From positions 4,130,920 to 4,194,919 of the forward strand of contig NZ_LR593887.1 of the NCBI RefSeq assembly GCF_901538355.1: a DNA stretch of 64,000 nt. The letters are read 5' to 3'. Below, one piece after another: positions 3,065 to 61,527 of the stretch. Positions within the stretch are counted from its first letter, which is position 1, and each line of letters begins with the position of its first letter. A model generated the notes under the pieces. It was given only the letters and a program-made list of their open reading frames with translations, was not told the DNA's origin and ran no database searches. The stretch comes from Tuwongella immobilis. Its GTDB lineage: Bacteria; Planctomycetota; Planctomycetia; Gemmatales; Gemmataceae. Position numbers and translations under genes: made by a program.

Positions 3065-4714
3065 ATGATGGGATCGAAGACCAGATCGTTTCGACGCCTG
3101 TGGCCGCTCGCGGGGGGCATCGCCTTCCTGGGAACCGCGCTAACCGCTTCGTCGCAATCGCCGCCGGCTCCGGTCCCCAATGTGGTGACACCGATTGACC
3201 CCGATCCGTATGGGCTGGTCGGGGCTGTCGAGAATGATTCGAAGTTGACCACTCCCTTCGGCACGCAACTGAATACTGTCGAAAGTATGCCGATCGACTT
3301 AGTGACGGTTCTGCAACTGGCGGACCTGCAAAATCCGACCAACGGCCGAGCGCAAGCACGAGTTCGACAAGCGTTGGCGCAGGTCGATCAGGCACGGATT
3401 CTGCTGCTGCCGAATATCGTCGTGGGGGCCAATTACTTCCGGCACGATGGCATCGATCAGAATCGCCGGGGGGATATCTTCCGAGTGTCGCGAAGTAACA
3501 CGTGGACCAGCGGTGCATTCCAATTGCGATTGGACCTGAGCGATGCCATTTATCAGCCGCTGATCGCCAAGCGCGTCCGCGATGCGGCGGTTGCCAACGC
3601 GCAATCGGTTCGCAATCAAGTGCAGTTGGATGCGGCCCTGCTCTATCTCGATCTGATGCAGCTTTATGCCCAATTGGCGATTAACGAAGAGACCATCGTT
3701 CAGACCGAATTGATGCTGGAACGGGCACGGACTGCCGACGCCGCCGGGCTGAGCAAAGCCAAGGGCGACATCAACCGCGCGGTGAAGGAATTCAACGTCC
3801 GCCGTCAAGAGCGACGCGAACTCAAAGGGCGCATCGGGGCGGCATCGGCAAAGCTCGGCCGCGTTTTGCAGTTGGATTCCACCGTCGACTTACGCCCCAT
3901 CGATCCAGTCGTTGTGCCAATTCAGTTGGTACCAGGACAGCCATTTGAAAATCTGATTGCGTTAGCATTGGGAAATCGACCGGAAATTGCCGAATCGCAA
4001 GCCCTTCGCGGTGCCGCCGATGAACGCTATCGACTGGCCCAATATCAGCCATTGATTCCGAAAGTCGCGGTCGGATTTTCGGGGGGCGGATTCGCCGGCG
4101 GACGAAACGCACAGTATTCCGATTTCGACGGGCAGGACGAATTAAGTGCCTTGCTATTCTGGGAGTTCCGCAACTTGGGATTCGGCAATCGCGTTGCGGC
4201 CCGAGAACGACAAGCCGTCGTCGATGAAGCCACCTATCGCGTCTTGGAAGTGCAAGCGCAGGTGAAGGCCGAGGTACTGGAATTCGCCAAACTTGCGACC
4301 GCCCGATTCCGCACCCTGAACTTCGCCCAGGAAGCCGTCCGTCAAGCCACGGAACTCTATCGGCGCTTGCTCGAATCGCAGCAGAATTTAATCGGCCCAC
4401 GTGCGACGTATGATGCACTGGAACCGCTGCTGGCGATTCAATCGCTGAATCAGACACGCACGCAATATCTCAACGAGGTCATGGAGTTTAATCGGGCCCA
4501 ATTCCGACTATTCACGGCGTTGGGTCAGCCGGCAATCGGATCCATTCCGGGTGGCACGCCGATTCCGGTGGCGGTGCCAGTAGTGCCGCAATCCCCGTTG
4601 GCGCCGGGGCAACGACTCCCCGCACCGGCCGCCGGTCCACAGCCTGCCCCACCGGCCGCCGGTACACAACCGGGTCAGGTGCCACAAGCGATGCTGCTGC
4701 CGCAAGTGCGGTAA
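3065..4714 (+). CDS. TolC family outer-membrane efflux channel protein
   Basis: This is a predicted outer-membrane channel of about 549 residues. The N-terminus is a signal peptide: basic residues (KTRSFRR), a hydrophobic stretch, then a small-residue site near TASSQ. The body has long Ala/Gln/Glu-rich helical segments in two related halves (around QARVRQALAQVDQAR and EITVYRRLLE-like helices), as expected of the two OEP repeats of TolC. The C-terminus is a low-complexity Pro/Ala/Gln tail. The start at 3065 follows GGAG by 9 bases and gives a clean signal peptide; the open frame extends back to 2825 but that part looks non-coding. It diverges from the RND pump at 1-2661 and is probably its exit duct. 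Confidence 0.88.
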   Translation: MMGSKTRSFRRLWPLAGGIAFLGTALTASSQSPPAPVPNVVTPIDPDPYGLVGAVENDSKLTTPFGTQLNTVESMPIDLVTVLQLADLQNPTNGRAQARVRQALAQVDQARILLLPNIVVGANYFRHDGIDQNRRGDIFRVSRSNTWTSGAFQLRLDLSDAIYQPLIAKRVRDAAVANAQSVRNQVQLDAALLYLDLMQLYAQLAINEETIVQTELMLERARTADAAGLSKAKGDINRAVKEFNVRRQERRELKGRIGAASAKLGRVLQLDSTVDLRPIDPVVVPIQLVPGQPFENLIALALGNRPEIAESQALRGAADERYRLAQYQPLIPKVAVGFSGGGFAGGRNAQYSDFDGQDELSALLFWEFRNLGFGNRVAARERQAVVDEATYRVLEVQAQVKAEVLEFAKLATARFRTLNFAQEAVRQATELYRRLLESQQNLIGPRATYDALEPLLAIQSLNQTRTQYLNEVMEFNRAQFRLFTALGQPAIGSIPGGTPIPVAVPVVPQSPLAPGQRLPAPAAGPQPAPPAAGTQPGQVPQAMLLPQVR

Positions 4715-57135: not shown

Positions 57136-57759
57136 TCAATTCTTTGGAGGTGGAATCAGTGGACGAGTGGGGACGCGAATTTCTCGCAGGTCGGGCGTGG
57201 GTCGCAATCGCGGAATCGGGCCGAACATCGGCAGCGCGAGCGGTTCCGTTTGTGGCAGGCTCGGCTCAGCAGCGAACAGCCCCACCGACGGCGTGCGACG
57301 ACACGATTGCCCGCGAATGACTCGCTCCCAAATCGAAGGGGCATCATCACTTGCGGTCATGGTATCGGTTGAACAGTCGGTTTCGCAGCAGGACGACGCC
57401 TGAGTCGCGTGTCGATTCATGGAATCGCAGCAGGACTTCGGTCGCTTCGCCGTCGCCGCACGATCGCCGGCCGCCTTCCGTCGAGCGGAATCGGGCACGG
57501 CCGCGCCGTGAGCATCCGCCCAGGCAACCTTTTCGACCAGCGTGAAGCAGCAACAATCGCCTTGCCAGCAGGTCGCCGCTGTCGCACAGCCGCAACCGTG
57601 CGATTGGCAAGGATAGGCGTCATCCGATGCACTTTCGACCGAGACGATTGGCCGAAATTGCGGAAATCCCAGCAACGACATGCCGTGCCCCAGCAGCAGC
57701 CCGGCCACAATGAGCAGGCGGGCGAGCGGCCAAATCGGGGTTCGACGAAATCGACGCAT
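57136..57759 (-). CDS. Cysteine-rich exported protein, unknown
   Basis: A 207-residue protein with a signal-like N-terminus (FRRTPIWPLARLLIVAGLLLGHGMSLLG). The region 48-75 is very Cys-rich, with SHGCGCATAATCWQGDCCCFT, and there are further SCC and SCCETDCS clusters around 110-130. The C-terminal part is Pro/Arg-rich with little structure. The spacing of Cys looks like a metal-binding or disulfide-rich region; I know of no named domain. It lies between a DUF1559 gene and the TsdA-like cytochrome gene on the same strand. Confidence 0.72.
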   Translation of the reverse strand: MRRFRRTPIWPLARLLIVAGLLLGHGMSLLGFPQFRPIVSVESASDDAYPCQSHGCGCATAATCWQGDCCCFTLVEKVAWADAHGAAVPDSARRKAAGDRAATAKRPKSCCDSMNRHATQASSCCETDCSTDTMTASDDAPSIWERVIRGQSCRRTPSVGLFAAEPSLPQTEPLALPMFGPIPRLRPTPDLREIRVPTRPLIPPPKN

Positions 57760-57961: not shown

Positions 57962-58837
57962 TCACTTGGCAGCAGGGTCCGCATTGTATTCCCCGAGTCG
58001 GTCGGCGGGCGGCAGATGCTCCGACAATCGGAATTTCGGTCGAGGCTGCGAATGGATGTACGCCGCAATGTCAATCGCTTCGCGGTCGGTGAGCATCGGT
58101 TCGCCCAAGGGCATGGCCACCTTCAGCCAGGGGGCGAGCTTTTCGACCCGCGCCAGCCCCGCGCCATCGTTGTACGATCGCGCCCCCCAGACCGGCGGAT
58201 TCTCCGAGTCGCCCGCGCCATCGGCCCGATGGCAACGCGCACAATGCTTGGCATAGCCCGCCTTGCCAGCCTGAAGATTTAAATTGTCGATCGGTGTAGT
58301 CAACTTTGGCACCGCATTCGGCCCAAGCGGTGCCTTGGCGTTCATCGCAATCGGCTGGGACTGCGACAGCCACGTCAAATACGCGGTAATGGCGACCGAG
58401 ACCCGCCCACCCAGCGGCGGCCGTGTGCCGTTGCAGCTTCGCATGAAGCAGTTGAGCACGCGATCCTCCAACGTAATCACCCGCTTCTCACGGGGCGAAT
58501 ACGCGGGATACGCCGCCGCCACACCCAGGAACGACCCCGCCTTCGGATCACGACCATTGTCCAAATGACACGACGTGCAGTGGAGCGCATTGCCGACATA
58601 CGGCTTGGTCCATTCGTGTGTCGCCGTCTGTTCGACGAGCAACTCGCCCATGCGAATCGCTTCCCCGAGCGGTCCCTCTGGGAGTTTCGGCGACGGGATC
58701 GGCGTCGGCGGATCCGCTGCAAGCAGCGTCGATGATTGAGGTTGCGTCACGAACTCCAGCCCGACCCGCCCGAGCACGAGCGATGCCACGCCCACCCCGA
58801 AAATCCCAATTTTCGTCCAAATGCTTCGTCGCATCAT
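57962..58837 (-). CDS. tsdA: Dihaem cytochrome c, thiosulfate dehydrogenase (TsdA)-like
   Basis: A 291-residue exported protein with a signal or anchor segment (IGIFGVGVASLVLGRVG). Haem site 1 is C87-TS-C90-H91, and Cys130 lies in LNCFMRSCNGTRPPLGG, matching the TsdA position where a Cys is the axial haem ligand. Haem site 2 is C199-AR-C202-H203, with M242 in VAMPLGEP as a possible Met ligand. TsdA joins two thiosulfates to tetrathionate, or the reverse. Start at 58837 has GGAGG 7 bases upstream; ATG 58843 abuts it. The fused methyltransferase-DsrE gene is immediately upstream on the same strand, stop at 58850, so the two form an operon. Confidence 0.87.
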   Translation of the reverse strand: MMRRSIWTKIGIFGVGVASLVLGRVGLEFVTQPQSSTLLAADPPTPIPSPKLPEGPLGEAIRMGELLVEQTATHEWTKPYVGNALHCTSCHLDNGRDPKAGSFLGVAAAYPAYSPREKRVITLEDRVLNCFMRSCNGTRPPLGGRVSVAITAYLTWLSQSQPIAMNAKAPLGPNAVPKLTTPIDNLNLQAGKAGYAKHCARCHRADGAGDSENPPVWGARSYNDGAGLARVEKLAPWLKVAMPLGEPMLTDREAIDIAAYIHSQPRPKFRLSEHLPPADRLGEYNADPAAK

Positions 58838-58849
58838 TGGCATTCCTCC

Positions 58850-60079
58850 TCAATGCACCGGGACGTAAGCGAAGCCTTGCTGCTGTCGATTGACGATGAC
58901 CAGCACGGCGGCATGGGCAGTCTTGACCGTTGATGTCACGTCGGCGGCTTCGATTCCCGAATAGTTCAACGCCTGCCCACAGACGAGAATCTCGACGCCG
59001 ACGGCCTGCAAATCGCGAATCACGGGCAGATTCGGGTTCGTTTTCTGGTTGGTTCGCGTGGCATATGCCGCATCGGTCAGCACACAACGCGTCGCTTTGC
59101 CGTGGAACACCACCGAAATGGTCACATCCGACGCCTTCAGCCCGGCTGCGCCATACAGATTCAGCACCAACGCGGCGCGCTTCAGCCCTTTGTGGACCTC
59201 ATCGGCCGGGCCATCGGCCGTGATGTCGATGACCATTTTCGCCCCCTTCACCGGCGGTTCGACGGCTCCGGGCAGCATCACCACGCCGCCGACCTTGCGG
59301 ATGATCGGGTACGCCTGCTTTTCCGGCGGGATGATCGGCATCGGCGTCGCGGGCATCGGTGTCGTCGTCGGAGGAATCGCGGCGGGTTTCTGAAAGATGA
59401 CGAAGTAGTTTTCCTTCAGTAACTCCTTGATATCATTGACTTTGCGGAAACCAGCGTCGGTGATTTCGCGTTCGACCACGTCTTGCCCTGCGCGAACGTG
59501 CCCAAGCACCCAGTCGGCACTGGTGCCCGGGATCCGCTTGAAATCGATAACGATCAAGCGACCACCTGGTTTGAGCGCGGCATGAATCGAGGCGAGCATC
59601 CGCTGCGGGAATTCAAAGTGGTGGTAGGTATCGCAGACAAACACCGTATCCACCGAATTGGCCGCGAGTTGCGTCGTGGTATCGGTGCCCAAAACGGTGC
59701 GGATATGGTCCAGTTTCAGCGTCTTCGCCGACGTTGCAATTTGTTCGAGAAACTTCGGGGCAATGTCCACCGCGAACACGGTCCCTTTGGCACCGACCGC
59801 CTCCGCAAACAAGCGGGTGTACAATCCGGTCCCCGCCCCGACATCGGCGATGATGCTCCCCGATGGAATTTCGCATGCGGATACGACCTTCAGTCGCTGG
59901 GCGAATACCTCGCGGCTCTCGCCCTCAAATTTCGTCACCCATTCTTGAATATTCGGATTCCGAAAGGAATCATTGATCCCCGGTTTCACGCTTTTGTCTT
60001 GTCCGAGACTCGGCGATGTCAGCAGAATCATTGCCGCCAACATCGCCCCCATCCACGCCATCCTGCCCAGACTTCGCAC
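58850..60079 (-). CDS. Exported SAM-dependent methyltransferase fused to a DsrE-family domain
   Basis: A 409-residue two-domain protein starting at GTG 60079 (GGAGG 6 bases upstream). A signal peptide (MAWMGAMLAAMILLTSPSLGQ) precedes a class I methyltransferase (about 45-230) with the SAM loop VGAGTGLYT at 80-88, AVDIAPKFLEQ, and CDTYHHFEFP. A Pro/Thr-rich linker (232-256) leads to a DsrE-like domain (about 257-409), with NLYGAAG, VVFHGKATRCVLTDAAYA, LPVIRDLQAVGVEILVCGQAL and Cys367. DsrE proteins carry persulfides in sulfur oxidation. A methyltransferase outside the cytoplasm is odd because SAM is not expected there. It is upstream of the TsdA-like cytochrome gene in one transcript. Confidence 0.87.
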   Translation of the reverse strand: MRSLGRMAWMGAMLAAMILLTSPSLGQDKSVKPGINDSFRNPNIQEWVTKFEGESREVFAQRLKVVSACEIPSGSIIADVGAGTGLYTRLFAEAVGAKGTVFAVDIAPKFLEQIATSAKTLKLDHIRTVLGTDTTTQLAANSVDTVFVCDTYHHFEFPQRMLASIHAALKPGGRLIVIDFKRIPGTSADWVLGHVRAGQDVVEREITDAGFRKVNDIKELLKENYFVIFQKPAAIPPTTTPMPATPMPIIPPEKQAYPIIRKVGGVVMLPGAVEPPVKGAKMVIDITADGPADEVHKGLKRAALVLNLYGAAGLKASDVTISVVFHGKATRCVLTDAAYATRTNQKTNPNLPVIRDLQAVGVEILVCGQALNYSGIEAADVTSTVKTAHAAVLVIVNRQQQGFAYVPVH

Positions 60080-60264
60080 GGTCCACCTCCGATCGATTGG
60101 CCAATTGCAGCGATTGCTCAATCATACAAATCGTGACAACACGACATCTCAGAATCACCGCATGTCAATGCTAGACGCAGCGCGGATGCTTCGGATTCAC
60201 ATGCCCTTTCGGGAATGGATTTCCGGAATCGGGCCAATGCGGCGAATGGGGGCAGCAATGCCAT

Positions 60265-60342: not shown

Positions 60343-61527
60343 TTACTTCGCGGCGTTGAGTTGATCGAAAATCGGGCCGAGTTTCACTTCGCCAAATGGC
60401 TTGCCGGTCGCGGAGCCAGTCGAGGTGAAGCTAACATGCAGGATGCGTTCCTTGGGTTCAAACACCATCGACTGCATCGTCCAAACCCACTGATTGACGT
60501 TGTCGAGATTTTTGATCACATCCGGGACACCGAGTTTGTCGCTGGCGTTTTGCGTCTTCTGGAGCGCATCGAACCGCCAACATTTGGCTGGTTCCGCGAG
60601 TCCATCGGTTCGGAAATGATTGGTACAGATGCAGACTTCGTTGACCGCCTTGCGCACGTTCACCGTCTTGGGCGTGATTTCGATCACCGCGCCGCCGTTG
60701 CGGTCGCAGACCGTGAGATTGCCGTAGGTGGTGCGTTTCGTCGTTCGCAAGAGCTTCTCGGCTTCTTCGACCGTGGTGCATTCTTCCATCACCCGGCGAA
60801 GCAGGAACGCCAGCGGCACCCCGTCCAGGTCCAACTTCGGCGAGTTGTCGCCGGCCTTCTTGATTTCGTTCAGGGTAATCGACAGCCCCGCATCGTTGAT
60901 CCCCGAAATCACCCCCATCAGCGCGGGCAGTGTGACCGCGGCAAAGGCGTGTTTGCCCTCGGGCTTAAACACGGTGACCAGCGTATGTTCGCCCAGATTG
61001 CGGAACGGCGGCCAATCGAGATTGCGACCGAACAACGGCCCGCCGGTCTTGCTCCGCGACGATTCCACGACGATCGTGGAACAGCCGCCGATCTTGTACA
61101 AATCCGCTAACGTATTGGCGAAGGTAAACAGTTCCGGCTTGCGATTGGCGGCTTTGGCGGCGGCGGCGAGTTCCGCTTGGTGGGCTGGCGTGGTGTGGCT
61201 CAGCAGCGTCGTGCCATGTTCGATCACTTCGCCATACCGCTTCTGCAACTTCAGCAGCACCACCAGATCCGGCACCGCATCGACCAGAATCGAGGCGGGC
61301 TTGACCGCGAGCGTGCCATAGGCTTCGCCAATTTCTTCCGGGGTGCCTTGCAGAATCAGCACCGGCACATTGTTGATGCGTTTGAGTTCGCTGCGGCCAT
61401 GCTTCCCTTCCGGAAAGCGAAATGGCTCGGCGGCGTGCAGCACCGGCGTGCCAATCCAGCCGAGCATCGCCACCAGAAGTCCAACCATCCAGCCGCGAAT
61501 CCCGATCCGATTGGCAAGCCGATTCAT
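60343..61527 (-). CDS. C45-family autoproteolytic acyltransferase/hydrolase-like protein, exported
   Basis: A 394-residue protein with a signal peptide (GWMVGLLVAMLGWIGTPVLHAA). The Ntn-hydrolase nucleophile appears as Cys149 in IGGCSTIVV, where the chain would be cleaved autocatalytically. The family pattern FGRNLDWPP follows, with GVISGINDAGLSITLNE after it. C45 members include acyl-CoA:6-aminopenicillanate acyltransferase and related amidohydrolases; the bacterial substrates are mostly unknown. GAGGAG lies 9 bases upstream within the end of the ABC permease gene, so translation is coupled (6-base gap). Confidence 0.87.
   Translation of the reverse strand: MNRLANRIGIRGWMVGLLVAMLGWIGTPVLHAAEPFRFPEGKHGRSELKRINNVPVLILQGTPEEIGEAYGTLAVKPASILVDAVPDLVVLLKLQKRYGEVIEHGTTLLSHTTPAHQAELAAAAKAANRKPELFTFANTLADLYKIGGCSTIVVESSRSKTGGPLFGRNLDWPPFRNLGEHTLVTVFKPEGKHAFAAVTLPALMGVISGINDAGLSITLNEIKKAGDNSPKLDLDGVPLAFLLRRVMEECTTVEEAEKLLRTTKRTTYGNLTVCDRNGGAVIEITPKTVNVRKAVNEVCICTNHFRTDGLAEPAKCWRFDALQKTQNASDKLGVPDVIKNLDNVNQWVWTMQSMVFEPKERILHVSFTSTGSATGKPFGEVKLGPIFDQLNAAK

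Follow-up and report, generated by a model that had tools for sequence, protein, structure and literature searches.

In this study, we analysed a stretch of 64,000 nt (the window) from the planctomycete Tuwongella immobilis (positions 4,130,920 to 4,194,919 of NZ_LR593887.1), whose genome is a single contig of 6.69 Mb. One strand of the window carries a gene that joins a signal peptide, a class I methyltransferase (MT), a Pro/Thr-rich linker and a DsrE domain in one chain, followed directly by a gene for a TsdA-like dihaem cytochrome. The arrangement, built from known domains, is real and recurs, and we did not find it described in the literature searched. In the open-licence PMC literature, available mostly at abstract level, no MT-DsrE fusion, no exported bacterial methyltransferase of this kind and no DsrE-tsdA pair was found described. 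The domains, the export signal, the invariant active-site residues, the gene linkage and the recurrence of the fusion are features of the sequences themselves. From the gene linkage and the known chemistry, we propose that the exported DsrE cysteine is an acceptor or donor for TsdA. It seems quite possible, if still short of probable, that the two genes encode such a periplasmic module for sulfur oxyanions.

The fusion gene and its TsdA-like neighbour

The fusion gene lies at 58850-60079 on the reverse strand, as do all window features below, and encodes 409 amino acids between a GTG start and a TGA stop. A ribosome-binding site, GGAGGT (60085-60090), precedes the GTG at 60079 at the usual spacing and thus supports this start, signal peptide included; an alternative TTG at 60121 would merely extend the N-terminus. 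Judged by hydropathy and by the junction in relatives, the signal peptide covers about residues 1-26 (60002-60079), ahead of a conserved Q(E/D)KSV junction. The methyltransferase domain follows (residues 27-235; 59375-60001), recognised by Pfam (Methyltransf_11, residues 79-177, 65.5 bits, cut-off 21.2) and by a structural match to 3dh0. It contains the S-adenosylmethionine (SAM) loop D79-x-G-x-G-x-G-L86 (59822-59845) and the signature C149-D-T-Y-H-H-F-E156 (59612-59635), both conserved across relatives. The Pro/Thr-rich linker (residues 236-256; 59312-59374) is partly of low confidence in an AlphaFold2 model with a mean pLDDT of 92.4, where residues 237-248 form the only stretch of three or more residues with pLDDT below 50. 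The DsrE domain (residues 257-409; 58853-59311) was assigned by Pfam (PF02635, residues 284-406, 41.9 bits, cut-off 22.7) and by a DsrE tree, and its conserved cysteine, Cys367 (codon 58979-58981), sits in VCGQ. The DsrE domain and this cysteine are common to the DsrE/YchN family (2pd2, 1l1s and E. coli YchN) and to DsrE3A of Metallosphaera cuprina, from which the window domain differs in being exported and fused behind a methyltransferase. It was the DsrE domain of a relative (L272), not that of the window protein, that was superposed on 2pd2 (Z 15.7, rmsd 1.6, 108 residues).

The tsdA-like gene extends over 57962-58843 and encodes 293 amino acids from its first ATG. Its ribosome-binding site, GGAGGA (58844-58849), stands directly 3′ of the fusion stop. 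The first ATG is 6 bases past the TGA, and the ATGs at 58837 or 58834 are better spaced; the one fitting GGAGGA is 12 bases past. Given this well-placed ATG and a binding site directly after the stop, the two genes are probably translationally coupled. An earlier note, made from the window sequence, had put the tsdA start 13 bases after the stop; the close adjacency stands and the distance does not. A promoter scan at the locus found none. In the 6.69-Mb genome, nothing but the fused DsrE matches PF02635 (at E up to 0.001), and the tsdA product is the sole TsdA match at E up to 1e-15. That the only DsrE and the only TsdA of the genome adjoin is more than chance.

The tsdA product passed the Pfam cut-offs for SoxA-TsdA_cyt-c (42.6 bits, cut-off 27) and, in a further cytochrome c domain, for Cytochrom_C (42 bits, cut-off 21.3). 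Among solved structures, 5lo9 (E 1.2e-44) and A. vinosum TsdA (E about 1e-38) match it best. The window protein shares with A. vinosum TsdA (4v2k/4wq7) and M. purpuratum TsdBA (5lo9) two CxxCH motifs, here CTSCH for haem 1 (58565-58579; C89, C92 and H93) and CARCH for haem 2 (58229-58243), a cysteine aligned with the haem 1 ligand, and the haem 2 methionine, here Met244. Cys132 (codon 58448-58450) is therefore the predicted haem 1 ligand by alignment with A. vinosum TsdA, and the R-S-x-N-G that follows the cysteine there is also present in the window protein. The two differ before the haem 2 methionine, where A. vinosum TsdA has Lys208 and the window protein Ala. Excerpts of PMC5146829 report Ala at this place also in CccC, a TsdA-related protein that lacks the haem 1 cysteine, and describe the haem 2 methionine ligand as strictly conserved in TsdA. 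TsdBA has tsdB as its partner gene; the window has the MT-DsrE fusion instead. Both halves of the earlier description, a single chain from signal peptide to a DsrE domain with Cys367 and an adjoining TsdA-like dihaem cytochrome, were thus borne out, and the cytochrome keeps its catalytic cysteine.

We surveyed the conservation of these residues in relatives. Among the 131 MT rows, D79, G81, G83, G85, C149, D150, Y152, H154, F155, E156, H194, R196 and Y225 are the same in all, H153 is kept in 130 and T151 in 115, and position 105 is D in 124 and E in 7. Fifty of these rows came from a search with the motifs CDTYHHF and AD[IV]GAGTGL, and conservation there is partly by construction. The count was repeated on the 81 rows not chosen by motif, in which the same residues were again invariant and H153 was kept in 80. 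DsrE Cys367 is kept in 74 of 74 DsrE domains, and both CxxCH motifs, Cys132, Arg135 and Met244 of TsdA in 73 of 73 relatives. Such residues are, as far as sequence tells, signs of working sites and not of a decayed fold. Since the SAM loop is invariant and CDxYHHFE nearly so, the MT probably binds SAM, and it may act on sulfur.

Export of the MT family looks real from the N-termini. By hydropathy alone, a strongly hydrophobic stretch lies just ahead of the domain in 61 of the 65 distinct MT genes of relatives and window, that is, in 61 of 62 readable N-termini; three of the others are N-terminally incomplete (L074, L099 and L109) and one has another domain in front (L142). Nearly all of these N-termini finish in a junction such as AQEKSV. 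In addition, one 506-aa frame holds MT and TsdA (L123), and another holds MT and a di-haem peroxidase domain, CCP_MauG (L135). The c-type haem is attached outside the cytoplasm, where c-type haem domains also mature, so the MT domains of these two chains should be outside too. A cytoplasmic start of the fusion was considered and rejected: the GTG has a ribosome-binding site, no better-supported downstream start was seen, and the two chains join this MT family to c-type haem.

Linkage of DsrE to TsdA and to other sulfur genes

TsdA was found at E 1e-30 or better in 72 of 397 genomes of the class Planctomycetia, and 73 loci were opened; truncated loci such as L225 and L232 were included, and L049 (37% identity, outside the E 1e-30 set) was excluded. 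Gene starts and neighbours came from a simple in-house gene caller, which chose a wrong frame at L282, where the gene order was taken from the HMM match. DsrE stands directly upstream of TsdA on the same strand, with a domain gap of at most 259 bases, in 18 of the 73 loci and in 9 of 38 genus codes. Two more loci have an MT without DsrE directly upstream, one of them as a single MT-TsdA chain. In the TsdA tree (72 labelled rows, with L049 kept and two short rows dropped), the DsrE label needs 7 changes, at least 3 of them forced by strong branches; long outgroup branches make the deep part of this tree unsafe, and all trees in this study were quick ones without bootstraps.

The pairing was also seen on plasmids outside the phylum. 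Of 52 plasmid records with a TsdA match, 15 were opened via that match, and in five of them annotation or our own profile placed a DsrE gene no more than 7 kb away. Runella TsdA overlaps an annotated DsrE by 4 bases (21.7 bits, a weak score, to our profile); in Blastomonas the two genes are divergent with 77 bases between them; in Caballeronia and Paraburkholderia DsrE lies 2 to 5 kb upstream of TsdA; and the Stenotrophomonas DsrE was not found by our profile. The Spirosoma locus has a DUF1791 gene, which we take to be DsrE-like, and would be the sixth of the 15 if counted. Acetobacter and Komagataeibacter plasmids, opened via a DsrE match and thus outside the 15, carry a row of genes that runs from DsrE through two substrate-binding proteins, cytochrome c and TsdA to oxidase genes; they are alike in this stretch and count as one case. 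No sulfur gene set accompanied the Geminocystis plasmid match.

Published chemistry suggests what such a pair might do. In TsdA the reaction proceeds via an S-thiosulfonate on the haem-ligating cysteine, and for SoxA a transfer of this thiosulfonate adduct to a SoxYZ cysteine has been proposed (excerpts of PMC4423706). Metallosphaera DsrE3A takes thiosulfonate from tetrathionate (excerpts of PMC4175335). The DsrE proteins in excerpts of PMC9237845, PMC12423496 and PMC11582611 are DsrEFH or cytoplasmic DsrE3C. In our scheme, TsdA would oxidatively bind thiosulfate to its haem cysteine, or run the reverse reaction with tetrathionate. DsrE, which we infer to be the partner of TsdA, would act through Cys367 as the covalent partner, accepting a thiosulfonate or sulfane group that comes from either TsdA or tetrathionate; SoxYZ is proposed to accept it from SoxA in a similar way. 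The tethered MT would bind SAM or a SAM-like ligand and act on, or hold, the sulfur species on DsrE. The proposed logic is that of SoxA-SoxYZ, in which an enzyme with a Cys-ligated haem places thiosulfate on the cysteine of a carrier; the window case differs in that the fusion's 16 Pfam matches (E up to 0.1) include no SoxY or SoxZ family, and SoxB had no match in the genome. If DsrE is a carrier partner, TsdA would be more than a tetrathionate maker and could supply a carrier of the SoxYZ kind in bacteria that lack Sox.

A different role for DsrE is suggested by other sulfur genes nearby. It might be a persulfide carrier or scavenger of a sulfide-oxidation branch, with TsdA a neighbour in the same regulon and not its direct partner. 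MBL-rhodanese genes and genes for an SQR-like flavoprotein (250 bits against a cut-off of 525 for its best model, type III sulfide:quinone reductase) occur near 13 of the 18 DsrE-linked TsdA genes, against 2 of 55 and 3 of 55 unlinked ones; 10 of these 13 loci belong to one genus code. The two genes also occur where TsdA is not adjacent. We counted them in 80 loci found with the two MT motifs (the motif-search set) and in 27 MT-DsrE loci without adjacent TsdA outside it; the locus sets are not independent, as at least 20 of the 80 repeat loci opened outside the motif search. MBL-rhodanese and SQR-like genes were present in 10 and 4 of the 27 loci, respectively. Within the motif-search set the corresponding numbers were 7 and 5 of 26 fused loci (four of them with TsdA), 2 and 3 of 6 separate-DsrE loci, and 4 and 1 of 48 MT-only loci. 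In six MT-only loci the MT stands behind MBL-rhodanese-TauE genes or, in two of the six, behind an ArsR-rhodanese-flavoprotein row, an operon of the sulfane-sulfur type; Pfam was used to check the families at three of these loci. Judged from these neighbourhoods, it is chiefly DsrE that is linked to sulfur genes, the MT itself less so. These counts favour the sulfide-oxidation branch, but the immediate adjacency of DsrE and TsdA in 18 of 73 loci and in Runella argues against it, as does the window genome, which keeps the pair though no clear SQR-like or MBL-rhodanese counterpart was found there. We regard this role as rather doubtful.

The proposed partnership of exported DsrE and TsdA has a number of observations against it as well. 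In 53 of the 73 TsdA loci neither DsrE nor MT is directly upstream; three of these (L159, L215 and L220) have DsrE elsewhere in the stretch, and L225 ends upstream at a contig end. Ten of the 18 DsrE-linked loci belong to one genus code. TsdA is present in just 4 of the 26 fused loci of the motif-search set, and most opened fused genes have no tsdA alongside; the fusion-tsdA linkage is therefore real and not general. No DsrE was found at nine of the 15 plasmid loci, three of these nine being negative by annotation alone, since our profile covered the first 12 of the 15. Sulfane-sulfur type operons are missing from 42 of the 48 MT-only loci. In the window genome SoxB had no match; the SQR-like protein was matched once, weakly (E 8.4e-6), and the MBL-rhodanese protein seven times, always in part and within a single domain, mostly in the rhodanese portion, so that the sulfide context is borrowed from relatives. 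Other partners joined to these MTs are a di-haem peroxidase plus esterase and domains of the glycosidase type. We know of no periplasmic source of SAM, and none was found in the open-licence literature, so the earlier worry over the SAM supply of an exported MT stands. The DsrE3A precedent is archaeal, is not a fusion, and does not react with thiosulfate or polysulfide (excerpts of PMC4175335). The periplasmic sulfur module suggested in the earlier note has the domains, the export and the linkage in its favour, and as an overall interpretation it is partly supported.

The exported methyltransferase

The closest structural match of the MT, the Aquifex aeolicus protein 3dh0, indicates likeness of fold (Z 25.5, rmsd 2.1, 190 residues, 22% identity), and the window protein differs from it by the signal peptide and the DsrE domain. 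At the signature, the HMMER alignment pairs tfhel of 3dh0 with tyhhf, and the residue-by-residue comparison ends there. As the title of 3dh0 is merely SAM-dependent methyltransferase, the fold says little about the substrate. An identity as UbiE or ArsM was rejected, with scores far below the NCBIfam cut-offs (UbiE, 37.5 of 216; arsenite methyltransferase, 37 of 263); the best 25 of the 52 matched models were all far below cut-off.

Besides methyl transfer, the fold might have been repurposed outside the cytoplasm as a scaffold or for a non-SAM ligand. The lack of known SAM in the periplasm, the varied fusion partners and the failure to find a bacterial precedent for such a periplasmic or exported methyltransferase in the largely abstract-level literature would all fit a repurposed fold. 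However, D79, G81, G83 and G85 are kept in every row, position 105 is always acidic, and CDxYHHFE is near-invariant, including in the 81 rows that the motif search did not supply. Residues of this kind ought to disappear from a scaffold, and we consider repurposing somewhat unlikely. That the MT methylates sulfur is in turn the weakest inference of our scheme. It is clearly unlikely, in our judgement, that a periplasmic enzyme uses SAM outside the cytoplasm to methylate sulfur held on the DsrE cysteine or delivered by TsdA. If true, such methylation would call for SAM to be exported and would amount to a new terminal step of sulfane-sulfur or thiosulfate metabolism. Two relatives have a member of this exported family and c-type cytochrome domains in the same chain, which makes it directly testable whether SAM occurs outside the cytoplasm.

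Recurrence of the fusion and further gene arrangements

The full-length fusion was found in 10 of 102 genomes of the order, of which 83 match some part of it at E 1e-20, often through a more distant MT. Across the class, the opened loci show MT fused to DsrE in 32 or more of 397 genomes, from five family codes. The earlier note had named two outcomes as fatal to its reading, a downstream cytoplasmic start and absence of the fusion elsewhere, and neither occurred. Across the 131 rows of the MT tree, the MT-DsrE label has to change 17 times, and strongly supported branches force at least 6 of these changes. Among the 71 rows of the DsrE tree, nine Gemmataceae have fused DsrE domains that cluster with support in a group of their own, apart from that of the window. 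The domains must have been joined more than once, or joined early and then separated several times; as these trees stand, the fused state has changed repeatedly. MT and DsrE are neighbouring separate genes in two Verrucomicrobiota-labelled records (L285 and L300). Two of the loci, L277 and L281, are near-identical. Exported MTs have been joined to many partners, some seen once, but an accidental fusion by loss of a stop codon, with the domains working separately, is very unlikely and was rejected, given its recurrence across genomes and in two separate DsrE lineages, the forced changes on the MT tree and the neighbouring separate genes in the Verrucomicrobiota-labelled records.

An unnamed His-rich domain, X, lies between MT and DsrE in 5 of these 32 fusion genomes (L126:7414-9051; L127:2218-3894; L130-L132). 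It is also fused to DsrE alone, without MT; elsewhere it stands near fusions as a gene of its own or is flanked by Tll0287-like and CCP_MauG domains (further settings at L249:4321-4872 and L220:5379-7643). Its predicted model has two helix-hairpin-helix repeats. A limited structure search found no clear solved fold for it, NCBIfam gave only matches far below cut-off, and Pfam found only methyltransferase-type and DsrE families in four MT-X-DsrE chains and only DsrE in the X-DsrE piece. In L127, a second, NodS-like methyltransferase gene (3923-4573) stands between the SQR-like and MT-X-DsrE genes.

Exported MTs were also found fused to a GH5 cellulase-type domain (L136:7265-9010), to a glycosidase-type domain (L138:5237-6955) and to a di-haem peroxidase plus esterase (L135:6220-8673). 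Another stands behind a BLH_phosphatase-like domain that scores below its cut-off (L142:5733-7013); a BLH_phosphatase search of the window genome gave one match, below cut-off. In six loci (L256, L257, L259, L263, L264 and L266) a gene of one family, encoding 455-471 aa, comes next after the MT gene in the same orientation. It overlaps the MT by 1-4 bases in five and is 54 bases off in L266, and by eye it resembles an amino-acid permease.

In the window itself, a 207-aa cysteine-rich frame downstream of tsdA (57136-57759) had no Pfam or NCBIfam match at E up to 0.1. The gene upstream of the fusion (60343-61527) encodes a C45-type autoproteolytic acyltransferase/hydrolase (158 bits, cut-off 85).

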